A stretch of 64,000 bases of DNA, taken from NCBI RefSeq assembly GCF_002999235.1, contig NZ_CP027236.1, positions 2,542,001 through 2,606,000 on the forward strand, written 5' to 3'. The DNA comes from Actinomyces sp. oral taxon 897 (lineage in GTDB: Bacteria; Actinomycetota; Actinomycetes; Actinomycetales; Actinomycetaceae). Both the position numbers and the translations under genes were made by a program. The notes beneath the pieces are model-generated. The model was not told the DNA's origin. It worked only from the letters and a program-made list of their open reading frames with translations, and did no database searches. This document shows positions 41,886 through 55,786 of this stretch, in pieces. Each line of letters begins with the position of its first letter. The first letter of the stretch is position 1.

Positions 41886-43979
41886 ATGACTGACATCTCC
41901 AATTTTTCTCCCCAGCAGGCCGCTGACCCTCAGACGTCCATGCAGGACATGGCACGGATTGCTGCTGAGCGACCTGACCTGTGGGTGTCTCTCGCGGCAA
42001 ACCCGTCTCTCTACCCGGATCTGAGGGAGTGGCTGGGGAAGGTTGACGACCCGGCGGTCAAGGAGGCCCTCAGGGCCTCGGAGCAGCAGGCCTCGCCCGT
42101 CCCGGCTCCTGCCGCCGTGGACGCGCCCCCACCACCCCCGCCGCCCCCGGCGTCGGCACCGCCCCCACCGCCTCCGGCGTCGGCACCCGGTTCGGCCTCC
42201 GCTCCTGTCGCAGCTGACGCGGTCCACGCCCTCACGCCTGCGCCAGCGACCCCGTCACCCGCTACGGGTGCGCCGCTGGGACCGGAGCTGGCTGGCACGG
42301 TGGCTCCTGCGCCGTCTCCGTCGGCTGCGGCGATGGCGCCCACCGCTGTGGTCTCGCCGCAGCCGTCCGTCGCGGCGGGGCCTGCCCCGGCCCCAACCGG
42401 TGGAAGGCGACGTCGGCGTGGGTGGGTTATCGCTGCCGTACTCGTTCTTGTGCTCGCGGTCTCAGGCAGCGCGTTCGCCATCTACTCCTACTTCTTCCAG
42501 CGTGGGGCCTCCTCCCCGGATGGGGTCATGGACTCCATTGCGGAGGCGATCCCGGGCAAGGACATCCTCTCCTTGGGCAAGATGATCTCGCCGGAGGAGA
42601 TCGATACCGTCACGAAGTCCGCTGACGTGATTAAGGACGGCGGTTCCGGGTCGGGTGAGAGGAGCTCCAAGGGGGATCCTGGGAGCCTCTTCTCTGAGGA
42701 CGCGGTCGACAGCTACCTGGAGTCGGTTACCGTCAGCTCCTCGGAGATTCGGTACTCCGTTGACCAGAAGTCGGATGACCTGGCTATCGCCACCATATCC
42801 TCCTGGCGTCTTAACGCCAGGGTTGACCAGAGCCTGGCGGGCACGCTGCGCACGCGCTACGAGTCGGCAAAGGGCTCCAGCCTGAACCGGAAGGAGAAGG
42901 ACTTCTTTGACGACCTTGACTTCTCGGACGCCACCTACAACGACGACGTCTCGAGGGACTTCTTCTCGGGTGATATCCCGCTTGAGCTGGTCCTGGTCCG
43001 GGAGGACGGGCGCTGGTACGTCTCCCCTATGATGACCTGGGCCCAGTGGGAGTACCAGAAGGCGGCGTCCAGGGATGACGACGTCAAGACCCCCGACTAC
43101 CGGGCCGATTTTGAGGCCGAGGGGGCGCATTCACCTGAGGAGGCGGTCAGGAACCTGACCCAGTCGGTCCTCGACGCCCGTCGTCCCAGTGATCTGTTCG
43201 ATAAGGACGTGACCGGTCTGCTCTCTTTGCCGGAACGTCGCCTGGCCAGGGTGTACGGGCCTGTCACGGTCGGTGACGACCGTAAGTACTCGTCGCGTCT
43301 CTCGGAGCACGCGCAGATTGACTGGGACCTGAGCTCAACTGATATCGGAGACGGCCGGGCCGTGGTCCGCCCCGGGAAGTCAAGGATCACCGTGTTCCCC
43401 GGTGAGGAGAACAAGGAGTTCACCCTGTCATTCGACGGCGACACCATGAACGTGAAGACCTCCGCCTCCAGGGACAACACGGCGTCGGTCAATATTTCAC
43501 GACAGCTCGCTAATCCCGAACGGCTCGGGGTGGTGGTGGAGAACAGGCACGGAGGCTGGCACGTGTCCACCTCCGGGACAATTGTCAACGTCTTCAGCCT
43601 GCAGCCCTCGGAGCGTGCTCTCGACGACCTCTCCAGAATCCTGGAGGACGCGGGGATGAGTCCCAAGGACGCCAGCGACCTCGCTGACGCGGTCACCAGG
43701 TCCAGCGCCGTTGCCACCCCGGTCCTCGTGGCTGCCGATATTATTGGGCAGCTCAAGGACGTGGAGTGGCGTGGTCACAGCTACTCGGATCGTGATTCCG
43801 GTTCCACGGGCGGTAGCTACTACTACGGACAGTGCTCCCGGGGGGATATGGTGGCCTGCGACCTCCTCTATGCTACGGCCTCTAGCGATGAGAGGTCCTA
43901 CGGTCGGTCCTGCGGGGGAAGGAACTACTCCCTGAAATACGGCGGGCAGTGCGAGGCGCTATACGGAAAGCACTACTGA
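41886..43979 (+). CDS. Single-pass membrane protein with LRV-like N-terminus and Pro-rich linker
   Basis: A 697-aa protein. Residues 20-60 (RPDLWVSLAANPSLYPDLRE WLG) look like the variant leucine-rich-repeat-type domain frequent in Actinomyces. Residues 70-170 are Pro/Ala-rich with runs of proline. GGRRRRRG precedes one membrane helix (WVIAAVLVLVLAVSGSAFAI, about 178-198). The 500-residue extracytoplasmic part has two similar blocks (ESVTVSSSEIRYSV...; SSRLSEHAQIDWDL...), suggesting repeated domains, and ends in a Cys-rich motif (CSRGDMVACDLLY...SCGGRNY...GQC). I cannot name the function. It heads the rightward side of the type VII-like region. Confidence 0.82.
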   Translation: MTDISNFSPQQAADPQTSMQDMARIAAERPDLWVSLAANPSLYPDLREWLGKVDDPAVKEALRASEQQASPVPAPAAVDAPPPPPPPPASAPPPPPPASAPGSASAPVAADAVHALTPAPATPSPATGAPLGPELAGTVAPAPSPSAAAMAPTAVVSPQPSVAAGPAPAPTGGRRRRRGWVIAAVLVLVLAVSGSAFAIYSYFFQRGASSPDGVMDSIAEAIPGKDILSLGKMISPEEIDTVTKSADVIKDGGSGSGERSSKGDPGSLFSEDAVDSYLESVTVSSSEIRYSVDQKSDDLAIATISSWRLNARVDQSLAGTLRTRYESAKGSSLNRKEKDFFDDLDFSDATYNDDVSRDFFSGDIPLELVLVREDGRWYVSPMMTWAQWEYQKAASRDDDVKTPDYRADFEAEGAHSPEEAVRNLTQSVLDARRPSDLFDKDVTGLLSLPERRLARVYGPVTVGDDRKYSSRLSEHAQIDWDLSSTDIGDGRAVVRPGKSRITVFPGEENKEFTLSFDGDTMNVKTSASRDNTASVNISRQLANPERLGVVVENRHGGWHVSTSGTIVNVFSLQPSERALDDLSRILEDAGMSPKDASDLADAVTRSSAVATPVLVAADIIGQLKDVEWRGHSYSDRDSGSTGGSYYYGQCSRGDMVACDLLYATASSDERSYGRSCGGRNYSLKYGGQCEALYGKHY

Positions 43980-44187
43980 GCCCACCACCGTCCTTCTGCC
44001 GGACTCGGCGTTCCCCGGTCGCTTAGGTGCCGTCGTCAGGCTTGGCCGCGAACGTCGAGTCCGGCAGGTGAGGGCGGAAGGCCGCCTCGGGGAGCGGACG
44101 ACGCCCACGAGCAGCAGGCAGGTGAGGGCGGGCACATAATGTTAGTATATTCCACGTGTCATTAACGACTTGTTGGAGGTGGTACGG

Positions 44188-44676
44188 GTGACGCAGGACG
44201 GATGGCCCAGGGCGTGGGCCGCACAGGAGCGCCTGGAGCGTGGAGCTGAGCGGTTACGCAGCGCATCCGGGCAGGCCGAGGACGAGGCGGCTCGGGTCCC
44301 TGGCCTGACCACACGCCTGAAGGAGGTGAGTGGGAGTGGCTGGACGCCTGACCGCGCTGTGGTCGTGACGGTGGACGTGGCTGGTCGGCTGACCGGTCTG
44401 GAGCTGGGGTCCCGGGCGTACCTCATGGATCCGCCTGCTCTGGCTGACGTTATTCTCAGGTGCGTGAGCCAGGCCCAGGACGAGGTGGCGGAGGAGGTCT
44501 CGCAGATAGCGTCCCGGACCTGGGGAGAGGACTCTCAGCTGACCCGCCAGATAGTCCGGGCAGTGTCCGTCCGCCCGGCCGACGCCGCCCGGGAGCGGGA
44601 GAATTACAGGAGGAGCCCGCGACGTGAGCGTCTTGGAATGATTGACCCTGACGGCATTATTCGCCTGAGACGGTAG
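44188..44676 (+). CDS. YbaB/EbfC-like protein
   Basis: A 162-aa protein. A helical N-terminus (AWAAQERLERGAERLRSASG) is followed by a strand pair (VVVTVDVAGRLTGLELGSRA) and a long helix (PALADVILRCVSQAQDEVAE), the helix-strand-helix pattern of YbaB-fold proteins often encoded in actinobacterial type VII/WXG100 operons. GTG 44188 has GGAGG 8 bases upstream. The stop touches the start of the next gene, so they are co-translated. An AT-rich stretch at 44137-44160 probably holds its promoter. Confidence 0.72.
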   Translation: MTQDGWPRAWAAQERLERGAERLRSASGQAEDEAARVPGLTTRLKEVSGSGWTPDRAVVVTVDVAGRLTGLELGSRAYLMDPPALADVILRCVSQAQDEVAEEVSQIASRTWGEDSQLTRQIVRAVSVRPADAARERENYRRSPRRERLGMIDPDGIIRLRR

Positions 44677-45156
44677 GTGATTCGCGTGTCTGGTGGGCGT
44701 CGTGGGTTGTCGCGTCTGGTGGTGGCGCTTCTTGTCGTGGTGGGCCTGGTGGGTGCGGGGGCGGGTTACCTGTGGTGGGTGCGCCCGCCGGTGCGCCGCG
44801 CCCCCCTGCCCCCAGGGATAGAGAAGGGTGAGGACCTGGTACTAGGACCGTCGATCCGGCTTGAGTTCATGTCGACCGGCGATCTCGACTTCTCCTCTCT
44901 TGGCACCCAGCGGCACGAGTGGGTCGCCTTCGTCACCTGGGCCACCAAGGACCCCACCACCAGCAGCAGGAACATAGAGCTGCGTCTGGGCCAGCCCGTC
45001 CACGTCCAGGACCTGGGAACCCTCACCCTGACCTGGGTCAGACCCGCCCCACCACCATGGGACCTGTCCGACGGCTCAGGCCCACGCCTAGGAGTAAACC
45101 TCAACCCCGACCCAGGCGTCACCCGGTGCGCGCGCACCGACGACTGCAACGAGTAG
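44677..45156 (+). CDS. Single-pass membrane protein, family member A (candidate immunity protein)
   Basis: A 159-aa protein with a signal anchor (LVVALLVVVGLVGAGAGYLWWV) and an outside beta-rich domain. Family marks are LPPGIEKGEDLVLGP, HEWVAFVTWATKD, ELRLGQPVHVQDLGTLTLTWVRP and VNLNPDPGV. Cys pair CARTDDC ends it. Nearly identical to 46511-47038 and to the 3' part of the pseudogene 47151-47653. It directly follows the YbaB-like gene. Role as extracytoplasmic immunity or adaptor is inference from neighbouring effector genes. Confidence 0.75.
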   Translation: MIRVSGGRRGLSRLVVALLVVVGLVGAGAGYLWWVRPPVRRAPLPPGIEKGEDLVLGPSIRLEFMSTGDLDFSSLGTQRHEWVAFVTWATKDPTTSSRNIELRLGQPVHVQDLGTLTLTWVRPAPPPWDLSDGSGPRLGVNLNPDPGVTRCARTDDCNE

Positions 45157-45300
45157 GCGCAGAATGTCAATCCATGCGGACACGCCCGCACCAGAAGACG
45201 GGCCCATAAGGACTAAGCGTTCTGACCGCGGGAAGTACTTCACTCGAACCACTATAGGCGAGAAACCTCCGAAACATCTAAGGTACAGGCACTGGTGGTC

Positions 45301-45804
45301 ATGATCAAGTTGTCGCGAAGGAAGATGCCTCACGAACCCAGGCCTCACAGGCACAGGGCGTCCCGTGGCGTGCTGGTCCTGGTCGTCCTGGTAGCCCTGG
45401 GCTGCTCGGTGGTGGGTGGGCGTCTGCTGTATGTATGGTGGCAGCGTCCTTCCACTGAATGGGTTCCCCTGCCCCCAGGTATTGAGGAGGGTGAGACGCT
45501 GACCCTGGGCCCGGGCATACCTCCGGAGCGGACTAACTATGGTTACCTGAAGTACCGGGCGGCGCGCATTGAGAATCGTGAGTGGGTGGTGGATGTTAAG
45601 TGGCTGCGTACTGACGGCGGTGCCGACGAGGAGAAGGAGCTGCGACTGGGGGAAAGCGTCTACCTTGAGGGGCTCGGAACGATCACGCTTACGGCAGTAA
45701 GACCAAGACCAGTATTCACCTTCCCGTGGGAGGAGACCCCCTGGAACGACTACATGAAAGCTATCTTCAACCTCGAACTCGAACCCGGAATCATACTGCT
45801 GTAG
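45301..45804 (+). CDS. Single-pass membrane protein, family member B
   Basis: A 167-aa protein starting MIKLSRRK, with signal anchor GVLVLVVLVALGCSVVGG. The outside domain shows the same order of marks as member A: PLPPGIEEGETLTLGPGI, ENREWVVDVKWLR, ELRLGESVYLEGLGTITLT and LELEPGIILL. It lacks the C-terminal Cys pair. ATG 45301 matches the start of its inverted partner at 46483. Related to A at about family level, not recent copy level. Confidence 0.72.
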   Translation: MIKLSRRKMPHEPRPHRHRASRGVLVLVVLVALGCSVVGGRLLYVWWQRPSTEWVPLPPGIEEGETLTLGPGIPPERTNYGYLKYRAARIENREWVVDVKWLRTDGGADEEKELRLGESVYLEGLGTITLTAVRPRPVFTFPWEETPWNDYMKAIFNLELEPGIILL

Positions 45805-45815
45805 CCTACGTAGAC

Positions 45816-45833
45816 CAAAAAGCAGTCTTTTTG
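45816..45833. terminator. AT-rich hairpin at the inversion axis
   Basis: CAAAAAG and CTTTTTG flank a 4-base loop. It sits between the convergent ends of B and B' and could terminate both, since each strand reads a T-run in the second arm. Confidence 0.45.
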
Positions 45834-45877
45834 CTCATGTCGGTATCCGATCCATGTTTAATAGGTGCCTGTCTGAG

Positions 45878-46483
45878 TTAGGGTGTGGGGGTTGTGGTAG
45901 GCTGCTGGGTCGACTCGTTGCAGAGGTTGTCGCCCACTGTGCACAGGACGACTCCGGGGTCGAGGGTGAGGTTGAGCATGATATAGTCGTAGCCACCGTC
46001 TATTATTTTGGGGGGTTCCCATGGGAATCGGAAGTCGTCTGGTGGGGCTGGTGATGGTAGGGTGACGCTGAGGAGGGTGATGGTGCCCAGTCCGGTGAGG
46101 TGCGCGCTCTCGCCCAGGTGGAGTGTGGGATGCTCGTCGTCGGCGTCGTGGAGCTCCCAGTCCAGGGTCACGACCCACTGGCGGTTCTCTATCCGGCAGC
46201 TTCCCACGTAGAGTTCTCCGGCCTTTGTGTTGGTGAGGTTGTTGGCGGTCCCGCCGAGGCTTATTGTCTGTCCTGCCTCCACGTCCGGGGGCAGGGCGAC
46301 GCTGTTGACGGTGGGCCACTGAATTGCGTGAGCCTCGCGCTGCCGCTGCGCCTGCCACATCCTCCAACCCACCACCGAGCAGCCCAGGGCTATCAGGGCG
46401 ACCAGGACCAGCACGCCACGGGATGCCCCGTACCTGTGACGCCTGGGTCCGTGAGACATCTTCCTTCGCGACAACTTGATCAT
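45878..46483 (-). CDS. Single-pass membrane protein, family member B'
   Basis: A 201-aa protein. The first 35 codons match member B closely (MIKLSRRKM, SRGVLVLVALIALGCSVVG). The outside domain is diverged: VALPPDVEAGQTISLGG, CRIENRQWVVTLDWELHD, TLHLGESAHLTGLGTITLL and LNLTLDPGVVLC. It ends in CNESTQQPTTTPTP, a tail shared with the pseudogene at 47151 rather than with B, so the gene is a mosaic. Confidence 0.75.
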   Translation of the reverse strand: MIKLSRRKMSHGPRRHRYGASRGVLVLVALIALGCSVVGWRMWQAQRQREAHAIQWPTVNSVALPPDVEAGQTISLGGTANNLTNTKAGELYVGSCRIENRQWVVTLDWELHDADDEHPTLHLGESAHLTGLGTITLLSVTLPSPAPPDDFRFPWEPPKIIDGGYDYIMLNLTLDPGVVLCTVGDNLCNESTQQPTTTPTP

Positions 46484-46510
46484 GTGGATTGGCGTTTTCT
46501 AATAGTGTAT

Positions 46511-47038
46511 CTACTCGTTGCAGTCGTCGGTGCGCGCGCACCGGGTGACGCCTGGGTCGGGGTTGAGGTTTACTCCTAGGCGTGGGCCTGAGCCGTCGGA
46601 CAGGTCCCATGGTGGTGGGGCGGGTCTGACCCAGGTCAGGGTGAGGGTTCCCAGGTCCTGGACGTGGACGGGCTGGCCCAGACGCAGTTCTATGTTCCTG
46701 CTGCTGGTGGTGGGGTCCTTGGTGGCCCAGGTGACGAAGGCGACCCACTCGTGCCGCTGGGTGCCAAGAGAGGAGAAGTCGAGATCGCCGGTCGACATGA
46801 ACTCAAGCCGGATCGACGGTCCTAGTACCAGGTCCTCACCCTTCTCTATCTCTGGGGGCAGGGGGGCGCGGCGCACCGGTGGGCGTACCCACCACAGGTA
46901 ACCCGCCCCCGCACCCACCAGGCCCACCACGACAAGAAGCACCACCACCAGACGCGACAACCCACGACGCCCACCAGGCACGGGTCCTGGTCCTCCTTGT
47001 CTTAGTGCGGGGTCGTGTGGGGTACCAGTCCTGTTCAT
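46511..47038 (-). CDS. Single-pass membrane protein, family member A'
   Basis: A 175-aa near-copy of member A with a longer cytosolic N-terminus (MNRTGTPHDPALRQGG). From GGRRGLSRL to the C-terminal TDDCNE the two proteins differ at only two or so residues. It lies in the leftward operon below the calpain-like protease, after the broken copy A''. Confidence 0.77.
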   Translation of the reverse strand: MNRTGTPHDPALRQGGPGPVPGGRRGLSRLVVVLLVVVGLVGAGAGYLWWVRPPVRRAPLPPEIEKGEDLVLGPSIRLEFMSTGDLDFSSLGTQRHEWVAFVTWATKDPTTSSRNIELRLGQPVHVQDLGTLTLTWVRPAPPPWDLSDGSGPRLGVNLNPDPGVTRCARTDDCNE

Positions 47039-47150
47039 GTCGTCTTCTTGGGGATGGTCCTGTCCTTGAGCGCTTGCGGGGGCCTAACTCTCTCGGAGCC
47101 TGGTAGCGCATCCTGATAGTTGTGACAGCACAGGATAACGCCTGCCTGAG

Positions 47151-47653
47151 TTAAGGTGTGGGGGTGGCGGTAGGCTGCTGAGTCGACTCGTTGCAGTCGT
47201 TGGCGTACATGCACATGGTGACGCCTGGGTCGGGGTTGAGGTTTACTCCTAGGCGTGGGCCTGAGCCGTCGGACAGGTCCCATGGTGGTGGGGCGGGTCT
47301 GACCCAGGTCAGGGTGAGGGTTCCCAGGTCCTGGACGTGGACGGGCTGGCCCAGACGCAGCTCTATGTTCCTGCTGCTGGTGGTGGGGTCCTTGGTGGCC
47401 CAGGTGACGAAGGCGACCCACTCGTGCCGCTGGGTGCCAAGGGAAAAGAAGCTGAGGGTACCGGTGGAAGTGCCCGCGGGTGGTATCGGGGGCTGAGGAG
47501 CAGGTCCTCACCCTTCTCTATCCCTGGGGGCAGGGGGGCGCGGCGCACCGGTGGGCGCACCCACCACAGGTAACCCGCCCCCGCACCCACCAGGCCCACC
47601 ACGACAAGAAGCGCCACCACCAGACGCGACAACCCACGACGCCCACCAGACAC
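47151..47653 (-). pseudogene. Frameshifted family member A''
   Basis: GTG 47653 has AGGAG upstream and the first 50 codons match member A (GGRRGLSRLVVALLVVVG ... GIEKGEDL). Near 47497-47503, in a run of C, the frame is lost. The next frame carries the rest of the family domain (IPPAGTSTGTLSFFSLGTQR, then the A-identical HEWVAFVTWATKD) to CNESTQQPTATPTP and TAA at 47153-47151. A one-base change would restore an about 167-aa protein. It is the first gene after the protease, the usual position for a cognate immunity gene. Confidence 0.75.
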
Positions 47654-47702: not shown

Positions 47703-49028
47703 CTATGAGATCTGACCAATATGGGTCTCATTAAAGTATGTCTGGTAGTCGTTTCGTGTGATCCGGATTTTACCTCCGTGAATACGGTCTCCGGACGAGT
47801 CTTTGTTTTCGCCCCATGGATTGTATAAAGTGACGTACTGGTCATCAATGTCGATGACGGCATACGTATGCCCATCTACGATCTGGTACCTCCCCTCGGC
47901 GTCGGTGTCGTCTACATTCCCGTCACCATTTGTGTCGACCCTCGCAGTGATGGTCTTGCCGCCATCGCTCGAGGCGGTGACCGGCTGATGACTATCAACC
48001 GCCTCCTCGATCTGCTTCCACTGGCCGTCGGTGTACTTGTCGTCGTCCCACCACGGCCATCCCAGGAACCCTGAGCCCCCGAAGGTGTTGAGATTCTTTG
48101 CCTTTTTCCCTGACAGGTCCTGCATCGCGTCCTCTGAGTGTCCGTCAGGAAGGTCGTCGTTCCCTATGAGCTTCCCGTAGGCGCGCTCGTACACGTTGAA
48201 AAGATCAGGGGTGCCACTGCCGTTCCCCTCGGTGTAGTAGTCGTTGACCTCGATCTCCTTCTTCTCCCCGTCCTTGTAGAAAGTCACAATGAAGGCCTTT
48301 TTGCTCTCGTCCCACCTGACGTTGTCGCGCAGCATCTTGCGGCCCGCGTCGGTCCAGGCGTAGGCCGCCAGGGAGGCCAGGAAGTAGCAGTCACCGATCC
48401 GGCCCTGATCAACTCCTGGTAGTTCCTGAGTACCATTTATCTGCGCCCGGATCCTCGCTATATCTGATTTCTTCAGCGGAGCTCGCGCGCAGGTGTGATC
48501 ATCTTCGTCGCACTCAGTATCATCACTTGAGCTCGACCTGCTCGCACTACTTATGCCACTGGTGCTGAGTGCTGCGGCGGCGGTGCTGGCGGCGTGGGTG
48601 ACCTCTGTCTGGATGGTGGCGGCCGCCTTGGCGATGGTGGTCAGGGCGGCCATGGCGGCCAGGGCCTTGACGGGGTCGCCCAGGGCGTCCAGGAGGAGGC
48701 TGGAGGCCTGGGCGCGCAAGGTGGCAGCGGCGTCCTGGGCCGCCCGGAGGACGCCAGCGTAGGACTCCAGCACCCCGGCGCTCCCCTGGTAGGTGGTCTG
48801 GAGGGATCCCAGGTCGGTCTCGAGACCGCCGGTGCTCTCCTGGAAGGCGGAGGCGGCCTCGCCCTGCCAGGAGGGCGTACCGGCCGCGGCCTGGCCCACC
48901 AGGCCTGCCGCACCACCCACACGCCCCCCGGCTTGCCGCCAGGAGTCGGCCACCTCCAGCACCCCGCCTGGACTACCCAGGATCTCAGGAACCAGGCCTC
49001 CCGCCAGATCCCACGCACTCGTGCTCAT
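47703..49028 (-). CDS. Calpain-like (C2) cysteine protease with WXG-like N-terminus
   Basis: A 441-aa protein. Residues 1-150 are helical with a W-x-G motif at 54-56 region (TPSWQGEAASAFQ), like WXG100/LXG export domains. A Ser/Asp-rich linker (about 160-180) follows. The protease domain has all three calpain catalytic blocks: C214 in QGRIGDCYFLASLAA, H387 in VDGHTYAVIDI and N403 in LYNPWGENKD. An EF-hand-like loop (DTNGDGNVDDTD, residues 365-376) lies between the Cys and His blocks and could bind calcium. It overlaps the preceding WXG-type gene by ATGA. Probably a type VII-secreted effector; secretion genes themselves are not in the window. Confidence 0.85.
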   Translation of the reverse strand: MSTSAWDLAGGLVPEILGSPGGVLEVADSWRQAGGRVGGAAGLVGQAAAGTPSWQGEAASAFQESTGGLETDLGSLQTTYQGSAGVLESYAGVLRAAQDAAATLRAQASSLLLDALGDPVKALAAMAALTTIAKAAATIQTEVTHAASTAAAALSTSGISSASRSSSSDDTECDEDDHTCARAPLKKSDIARIRAQINGTQELPGVDQGRIGDCYFLASLAAYAWTDAGRKMLRDNVRWDESKKAFIVTFYKDGEKKEIEVNDYYTEGNGSGTPDLFNVYERAYGKLIGNDDLPDGHSEDAMQDLSGKKAKNLNTFGGSGFLGWPWWDDDKYTDGQWKQIEEAVDSHQPVTASSDGGKTITARVDTNGDGNVDDTDAEGRYQIVDGHTYAVIDIDDQYVTLYNPWGENKDSSGDRIHGGKIRITRNDYQTYFNETHIGQIS

Positions 49029-49573
49029 CGCAACCCCTCCACGTCAGGCTCGGCCGGCTGGTCGCCGCGTAGGCGTTTGGCCAGGCGCTGGTATATCTCC
49101 TCCCGGGTCTGAGGGCTGGGCGCCTGCTGACGGTGGGGCAAGTCCGCGCCCTCGGCCGGCTGGTCACCACGCAGGCGCTTGGCCAGGCGCTGGTATATCT
49201 CCTCCCGGGTCTGGGGGCTGGGCCCCTGCTGACGGTAAGGCGAGTCCGCACCCCAGCCGATCCCGGGGGCCACGGTCCCCAGACCCCCGGCCAGGGCGCC
49301 GACCTGCGTCTCTACCTCCTGGTCGGCCCGCGCGTAGTCGGCCGCCGCGGCCCCCAGCGCCTCGGCGGTCTGCTCGGCCCGGGCCGCGTGCCCACGCACC
49401 ACGTCCTCGAGCTCCAGGCAGAAGGCCTGCGCCGCACTGGCCAGGACCGGACTGCCGAACGTGGCCTCACTGCCGGTGCTCGGCACGTACGCCACGCCTT
49501 CCAGGGAGTCGGCGGCCTCGAACGCCAGGGACCGCGCCCTCGTCAGCTCGCCGAGCACGACCTCCAGGGACAC
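49025..49573 (-). CDS. WXG-type helical secretion-associated protein with C-terminal repeats
   Basis: A 182-aa protein. The helical N-terminus (VVLGELTRARSLAFEAADSL; AAQAFCLELEDVVRGHAARA; AAADYARADQEVETQVGAL) resembles partner proteins of the ESX/WXG100 class. The C-terminal third is two copies of a 35-residue repeat (RQQGPSPQTREEIYQRLAKR LRGDQPAE). GTG 49573 has GGAGG 6 bases upstream. First gene of the leftward operon with the calpain-like protease; it may be its export partner or chaperone. Confidence 0.75.
   Translation of the reverse strand: MSLEVVLGELTRARSLAFEAADSLEGVAYVPSTGSEATFGSPVLASAAQAFCLELEDVVRGHAARAEQTAEALGAAAADYARADQEVETQVGALAGGLGTVAPGIGWGADSPYRQQGPSPQTREEIYQRLAKRLRGDQPAEGADLPHRQQAPSPQTREEIYQRLAKRLRGDQPAEPDVEGLR
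49045..49254. repeat. 105-bp in-frame tandem duplication
   Basis: Two adjacent 105-base units sharing GGCCAGGCGCTGGTATATCT encode the repeated C-terminal block of the WXG-type protein. A few substitutions separate the units. Confidence 0.8.
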
Positions 49574-55533: not shown

Positions 55534-55664
55534 TGTCGCAATCTGAGGATCAGAGCCGACCCCACCCCGCCCCCGTCTTTATGCGCTCAATGTCCACGCA
55601 GGTCAGGGGCCTGGGCTCTGGTACGGCCAGGAGTGCCCTCCGCCCTGATCCTCAGATTGCGACA
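55534..55664. mobile_element. MITE-like element, copy 2
   Basis: 131 bp with perfect 20-bp inverted ends (TGTCGCAATCTGAGGATCAG). Related over its length to the 133-bp element at 2057-2189. No open frame. Confidence 0.7.
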
Positions 55665-55786
55665 CGCACAGGAGCACAGAGCGGCGGACGGCTGGTAGGA
55701 CATCCAGAGTATTGCGTAACCTGCCTAGGTTTACGCCAGGAGACACGTGCCCCTATCAGAGGACGCGACGGGCCTCCCGGACCCAC

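Follow-up and report, generated by a model that had tools for sequence, protein, structure and literature searches.

What purpose is served by a set of related membrane-protein genes, some of them inverted copies of others, beside a gene for a calpain-type protease? The question is raised by a locus in a 64-kb stretch of DNA (64,000 nucleotides in full, hereafter "the window") from Actinomyces sp. oral taxon 897, for which a preliminary description had proposed an extracytoplasmic immunity set, serving the neighbouring exported protease and diversifying by exchange between its copies.

Layout of the locus and its inverted arms

Read from left to right, a YbaB-like gene, A and B on the plus strand face B', A' and the broken A'' on the minus strand, followed on that same strand by the protease gene T and its small partner N. 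The open reading frames bear out this facing arrangement, which had been described from the sequence at the outset. The features are as follows.

44170..44676, plus strand: Y, a YbaB/EbfC-like gene ahead of A (PF02575, E=5.5e-8, over the cut-off)
44677..45156, plus strand: A, membrane protein and immunity candidate (open reading frame; hydrophobic helix and basic start)
44685..45156, no strand: left inverted arm, in A (472 nt, 6 mismatches against 46511-46982)
45295..45804, plus strand: B, diverged family member (open reading frame; 42% identity to A')
45878..46483, minus strand: B', diverged family member with an A''-like tail (open reading frame; tail match D4)
46511..47038, minus strand: A', membrane protein and immunity candidate (open reading frame; AlphaFold2 model)
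46511..46982, no strand: right inverted arm, in A', pairing with the arm in A
about 47178 to 47653/47654, minus strand: A'', broken copy adjoining the protease (two homology blocks mutually out of frame through a frameshift)
47703..49028, minus strand: T, WXG-like N-terminus and calpain-type (C2) cysteine protease domain, toxin candidate (PF00648)
49025..49573, minus strand: N, small WXG-like partner with a YARAD motif (family of 19 in the fetched loci)

The near-identity of A and A' in inverted orientation was confirmed, with arms that are 99% alike (6 mismatches in 472 nt) and 1354 nt between them. A'' matches A, again inverted, over 291 nt with 21 mismatches (93%) and over 159 nt with 3 (98%), and differs from it in one short block between these two matching blocks and by a frameshift; intact relatives with a variable block like that of A'' exist (e.g., P0041). 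For B and B' a good match is limited to 147 nt at their 5' end, with 21 mismatches, and the tail of B' does resemble that of A'', as had been noticed (66 nt, 88%; repeat family D4). What was duplicated in inverted orientation is a two-gene A–B unit (A B / B' A'); A'' is additional to it and stands beside the protease. As A and A' are 99% alike and B and B' are alike only at their start, homogenisation of A and A' after the duplication is suggested. A chance origin of the repeats is not plausible, because all four inverted repeats of at least 80 nt reported by a scan of the 64-kb window fall at this locus.

Two of the initial claims stood in part. The "five-member family" does comprise five copies, but four are intact and one, A'', is broken. 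Likewise, A'' directly follows the protease, ending up 49 nt from the end of T, but A and B lie on the other strand, facing T, behind the YbaB-like gene—a type of gene that also stands beside such modules in L056, L063 and L066.

Could the inverted duplication be an assembly artefact of near-identical genes? Long near-identical repeats assemble poorly, and one copy here is broken; yet the 3.25-Mb genome stands in two contigs with an estimated completeness of 100%, A and A' differ at six places and in their start regions, and relatives with the A start and with the A' start are both known from other contigs. We consider an artefact very improbable.

Elsewhere in the window, a protein of 697 aa whose start is of the leucine-rich-repeat-variant type (PF25591) is encoded just upstream of the locus (41886-43979), and a 153-nt direct repeat (71% identity) occupies 2057-2209 and 55534-55686.

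Protease, partner and membrane proteins across the genus

T scores 53.7 bits against PF00648 (cut-off 23.8), and its relatives keep the catalytic residues (Cys in 37/37, His in 37/37, Asn in 36/37); the retained triad and the profile match over the cut-off place it in calpain family C2. When a profile of the 37 relatives was compared with solved structures, calpain-3 (E=1.2e-8) and EsxA (E=0.009) were found, each in the expected half of the protein. T carries WQG at residue 54, and as a single protein it matches WXG100 weakly, below the curated cut-off. Given this WXG-like (type VII) N-terminus, T is probably exported by a route other than a classical signal peptide, and the window genome holds an EccB gene and two EccC-like genes, all over the cut-off. 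The catalytic domain also contains an EF-hand-like loop, DTNGDGNVDDTD, a short distance ahead of the His. Its first Asp is kept in 34/37 relatives, its last Asp in 37/37 and the strict loop pattern in 26/37, which suggests that T may bind and depend on calcium. Apart from the window itself, 396 genomes drawn from the phylum gave a single match to the T profile, a partial one in G244, which belongs to a different genus.

The gene for N overlaps that for T by 4 nt. ESX partner proteins bear a YxxxD/E motif, and at its place the window's N has YARAD; among 19 N proteins the Tyr is present in 6 and the Asp in all 19. Near its 3' end, N also contains a 102-nt in-frame tandem repeat (49049-49252; two copies, 90%) that is missing from the other 18 aligned N proteins.

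For the A/B proteins we predict one membrane helix followed by a beta domain outside the membrane: A has a basic start and then a single hydrophobic helix, and an AlphaFold2 model of A' (pLDDT 80) places a helix at residues 24-51 and a beta domain at 68-160. This predicted topology agrees with the single anchor and beta-rich outside domain first proposed. No Pfam domain exceeded its cut-off for A, B, B' or A', nor did any NCBIfam model for these four, the L056 member or one L084 member; DUF2749 and TrbK were rejected as identities, their matches being weak, below the cut-off and confined to the membrane helix. No sequence relation to solved chains was found for the family. Named close protein relatives carry Actinomyces names, including a protein of Actinomyces sp. 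HMT897 that is 98% identical to A', and in 213 genomes of the taxonomic family, where the best 16 or fewer candidates per listed genome were scored, profile matches occurred in 15 genomes and in one of 36 genera, that of the window.

Within that genus the three components occur together. Among 49 genomes, the family is present in 15, T in 16 and both in 14 (p=2.5e-9); EccB is present in 13, 12 of which also have the family (p=5.9e-8), and T and EccB likewise co-occur (p=2.3e-7). G005 and G033 have T and no family match, and an iterated profile found divergent family-like genes adjoining T in both (weakly in G005, E=1e-8; clearly in G033). These two genomes and the drafts G013 and G029 (~100 contigs each) have T and no EccB match, and G032 has EccB with neither family nor T. 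G030 has two family genes (L080, L081) and no match to T or EccB, and these may be orphan immunity genes.

Gene neighbourhoods were taken from 31 stretches covering the matches. Of 30 T-like ORFs of at least 240 aa (shorter pieces were dropped) one, L060, is a long ORF over a toxin remnant, leaving 29 T genes; family matches with E above 1e-15 were dropped from the counts, so that neither A'' nor the divergent L085 is included. A family gene lies 3' of T in 29/29 cases. In 27 it is within 400 nt, on the same strand in 11 and facing in 16; the other two are the window (same strand, first copy broken) and L062 (facing, T split into two pieces), for totals of 12 on the same strand and 17 facing. 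On the 5' side, by comparison, a family gene lies within 400 nt in only 1/29, and that one is a fragment. The 30 loci with family genes hold 65 of them, 59 in loci with a counted T, and 6/30 loci have both orientations. Five of the 30 lack a counted T, two of these (L071, L072) at contig ends.

Divergence of the toxin-proximal family member tracks the catalytic domain of T, not its export domain. Specifically, the two sets of distances are correlated over 25 pairs that leave out the window, G033 and L062 (Mantel r=0.84, p=1e-4), as they are over all 28 (r=0.85). For the 19 pairs in which the N-terminal part of T could be used, the partial correlation of the family with the catalytic domain given the N-terminal domain is 0.71 (p=1e-4), and that with the N-terminal domain given the catalytic domain is 0.07 (p=0.26). 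Such distance tests do not fully remove shared ancestry, and in 16 arrays the second gene also correlates with T (0.72, vs. 0.84 for the proximal gene, with no significance attached to the difference), so shared ancestry contributes to the correlation.

Mosaic alleles, proposed immunity and changes of orientation

Our searches found 118 protein clusters, metagenomic alleles included, of which 72 are close alleles of A (P0030 and P0078 were left out of this set). Among these 72 there are three starts (that of A, that of A' and a short one resembling A''; seven alleles are truncated) and three tails, and residues 71-89 come in four versions and residues 103-115 in two. Every start is seen with every tail, some combinations once. 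In the 15 alleles with a contig >5 kb in their cluster, two tails are seen with the A-type start and two with the A''-like start. Variation is densest at 71-89, 103-115 and 165-174, is scattered elsewhere (e.g., 57, 63, 128 and 138) and is almost absent from residues 90-102 and most of 116-137. While some mosaic alleles may be assembly chimeras, the mosaics read as marks of recombination or conversion between paralogues, and the mixing of starts, loops and tails supports the idea that the set diversifies by exchange between copies. T varies by domain as well: P0130, P0132 and P0133 are 95–96% identical to it over residues 1-170 and 72, 50 and 41% identical over 171-441. T thus has the constant trafficking domain and exchangeable toxin domain of a polymorphic toxin, and an immunity-type gene follows at the toxin 3' end, though facing it in 17/29 cases.

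We consider it likely that the locus encodes a polymorphic type VII (ESX-type) protease toxin together with a recombining extracytoplasmic immunity array, much as first proposed for the set. N and T would pair through their WXG-like helices and be exported together. In sister cells the calpain-like domain of T would act on the outer side of the membrane or in the wall zone, perhaps using the calcium available there. The A/B proteins, anchored in the membrane with the beta domain outside, would bind the protease domain made by their own strain or by rivals and so block it. Recombination between copies would keep the frame alike and exchange two loops, the tail and the start, and the copies would be kept as a repertoire against rival toxin variants. 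Counted in favour are the co-occurrence, the 3' linkage in 29/29, the co-divergence, the catalytic residues, the exchange of the T catalytic domain, the mosaics, the predicted topology and EccB/EccC. Counted against are the broken state of A'', the window's toxin-proximal copy; WXG matches below curated cut-offs and YxxxD at the expected place in only 6/19 N proteins; the five of 30 family loci without a counted T, and G030 without T or EccB; T without an EccB match in G013, G029, G005 and G033; and, for the two sequence comparisons, the correlation of the second array gene with T and the perhaps partly chimeric mosaics.

Alternatively, the A/B proteins could be accessories that keep the protease at the producer's own envelope or activate it there, for example as surface anchors, receptors or chaperones. 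Any dedicated binding partner would likewise stay strictly linked to T and diverge along with its catalytic domain, and some copies adjoin facing T genes. However, four observations fit a set used in antagonism better than a single-partner accessory: one toxin is accompanied by multiple non-identical copies, G030 carries copies but neither toxin nor EccB, the loops vary among the mosaic alleles, and the catalytic domain of T is exchangeable. An accessory role is, in our estimation, unlikely, and we retain the toxin–immunity reading.

The mixture of facing and same-strand genes bears on a further suggestion of the preliminary description, that the inverted arms could flip the segment between them. 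On a tree of 28 toxin domains (the L075 piece without a Cys motif was left out), the orientation of the proximal gene changes five times (4–6 in bootstraps), and well-supported branches force at least two changes. In L061, L074, L077 and L079, N is followed by family genes on its own strand and T faces them from the far side, cut off by that position from its usual partner gene N. This order is the inversion of that in L062, L075 and L078, which belong to another toxin clade and have N, T and a facing family gene. No inverted repeats of at least 24 nt were found around the cassette in the former four loci. Together, the changes on the tree and this repeat-free order indicate, from sequence comparison, that orientation changes occur on an evolutionary scale in the genus.

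Do the arms also work as a switch within a population? Inverted repeats of 472 nt with 6 mismatches are able to recombine, and a flip of the middle segment by A/A' recombination is possible on geometric grounds. In some cells homologous recombination would then invert the B–B' segment, so that either B or B' would belong to the transcript on the toxin side, with its counterpart downstream of the YbaB-like gene, and the choice of immunity proteins made with the toxin would change; this would add to the toxin–immunity explanation and not replace it. Besides the arms with their 1354-nt spacing, three observations are consistent with a switch. P0047 and P0052 join the A start to the A' body type, the product expected of a crossover within the arms; a different species of the genus has a nested inverted array of its own (L075, 2683-10394), with arms of 482 nt (85%) and a toxin fragment between them; and the proximal gene has changed orientation roughly five times. 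Gene conversion, however, accounts for the same P0047 and P0052 alleles, and the four loci with facing T lack inverted repeats around the cassette. We therefore regard a working switch as doubtful. The same low odds attach to the fuller idea of an antidote repertoire whose inverted copies flip and convert, swap specificity loops and move antidotes between toxin-linked and independent transcripts; if it were true, sister cells of one strain would differ in the calpain-like toxin variants that they resist.

Comparison with type VII toxin–immunity systems

Described systems offer close parallels. In the passages on streptococcal TelC (type VIIb) in PMC5555719 and PMC6193138, the toxin is exported, acts outside the membrane and is calcium-dependent; its immunity protein TipC combines a transmembrane segment at the N-terminus with a domain on the outside, and several tipC paralogues may share a locus, only the toxin-proximal one being active in the cases tested. 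The present locus resembles this system in a toxin that would act outside, a putative immunity protein predicted to be anchored with its domain outside, and paralogues, but TelC is a lipid II phosphatase and T a protease, and TelC/TipC belongs to a Bacillota type VIIb system. Similarly, the passages on TslA/TilA of Staphylococcus aureus in PMC10730906 describe an outside-acting type VII toxin and extracellular, membrane-bound immunity in multiple non-identical copies, proposed to guard against toxin variants of other strains. The candidate module here shares these features and differs in that TslA is a lipase with reversed domain order and TilA a lipoprotein. According to the parts of PMC9484751 that treat them, EsaG/TipC arrays are, like the A/B set, strings of non-identical genes with mosaics at high-similarity blocks and broken copies, and a repertoire against rival variants has been proposed there for EsaG. 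Those arrays are tandem and of Bacillota, whereas in the A/B set inverted copies take part; the words "inverted" and "orientation" are absent from the text of PMC9484751 searched.

The protease, too, has precedent. Rawlings 2015 (PMC4631099), in its passages on such fusions, reports calpain–WXG100 proteins in Herpetosiphon and Segniliparus that resemble T in joining a calpain domain to a WXG-type part, and a published reviewer comment considers them likely type VII toxins. In the part of that article covered, Actinomyces has 0 occurrences, and the passages on the fusions name no immunity gene. Bacterial calpains are there described as without EF-hand domains, whereas T has its EF-hand-like loop in the catalytic domain.

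On this reading the locus follows the logic of known type VII immunity arrays, but its toxin is of the calpain type, its inhibitors form a family of their own and some of the copies are inverted. If the proposed reading is true, it would give the ESX-type type VII system of Actinomyces-type bacteria a testable antibacterial role. It would also define a genus-restricted family of outside-anchored inhibitors of calpain-fold proteases, with no model in the Pfam and NCBIfam sets searched, whose genes would diversify by loop exchange between paralogues, inverted copies included. Structurally, too, a natural protein that inhibits a calpain-type protease of bacteria would be of interest.
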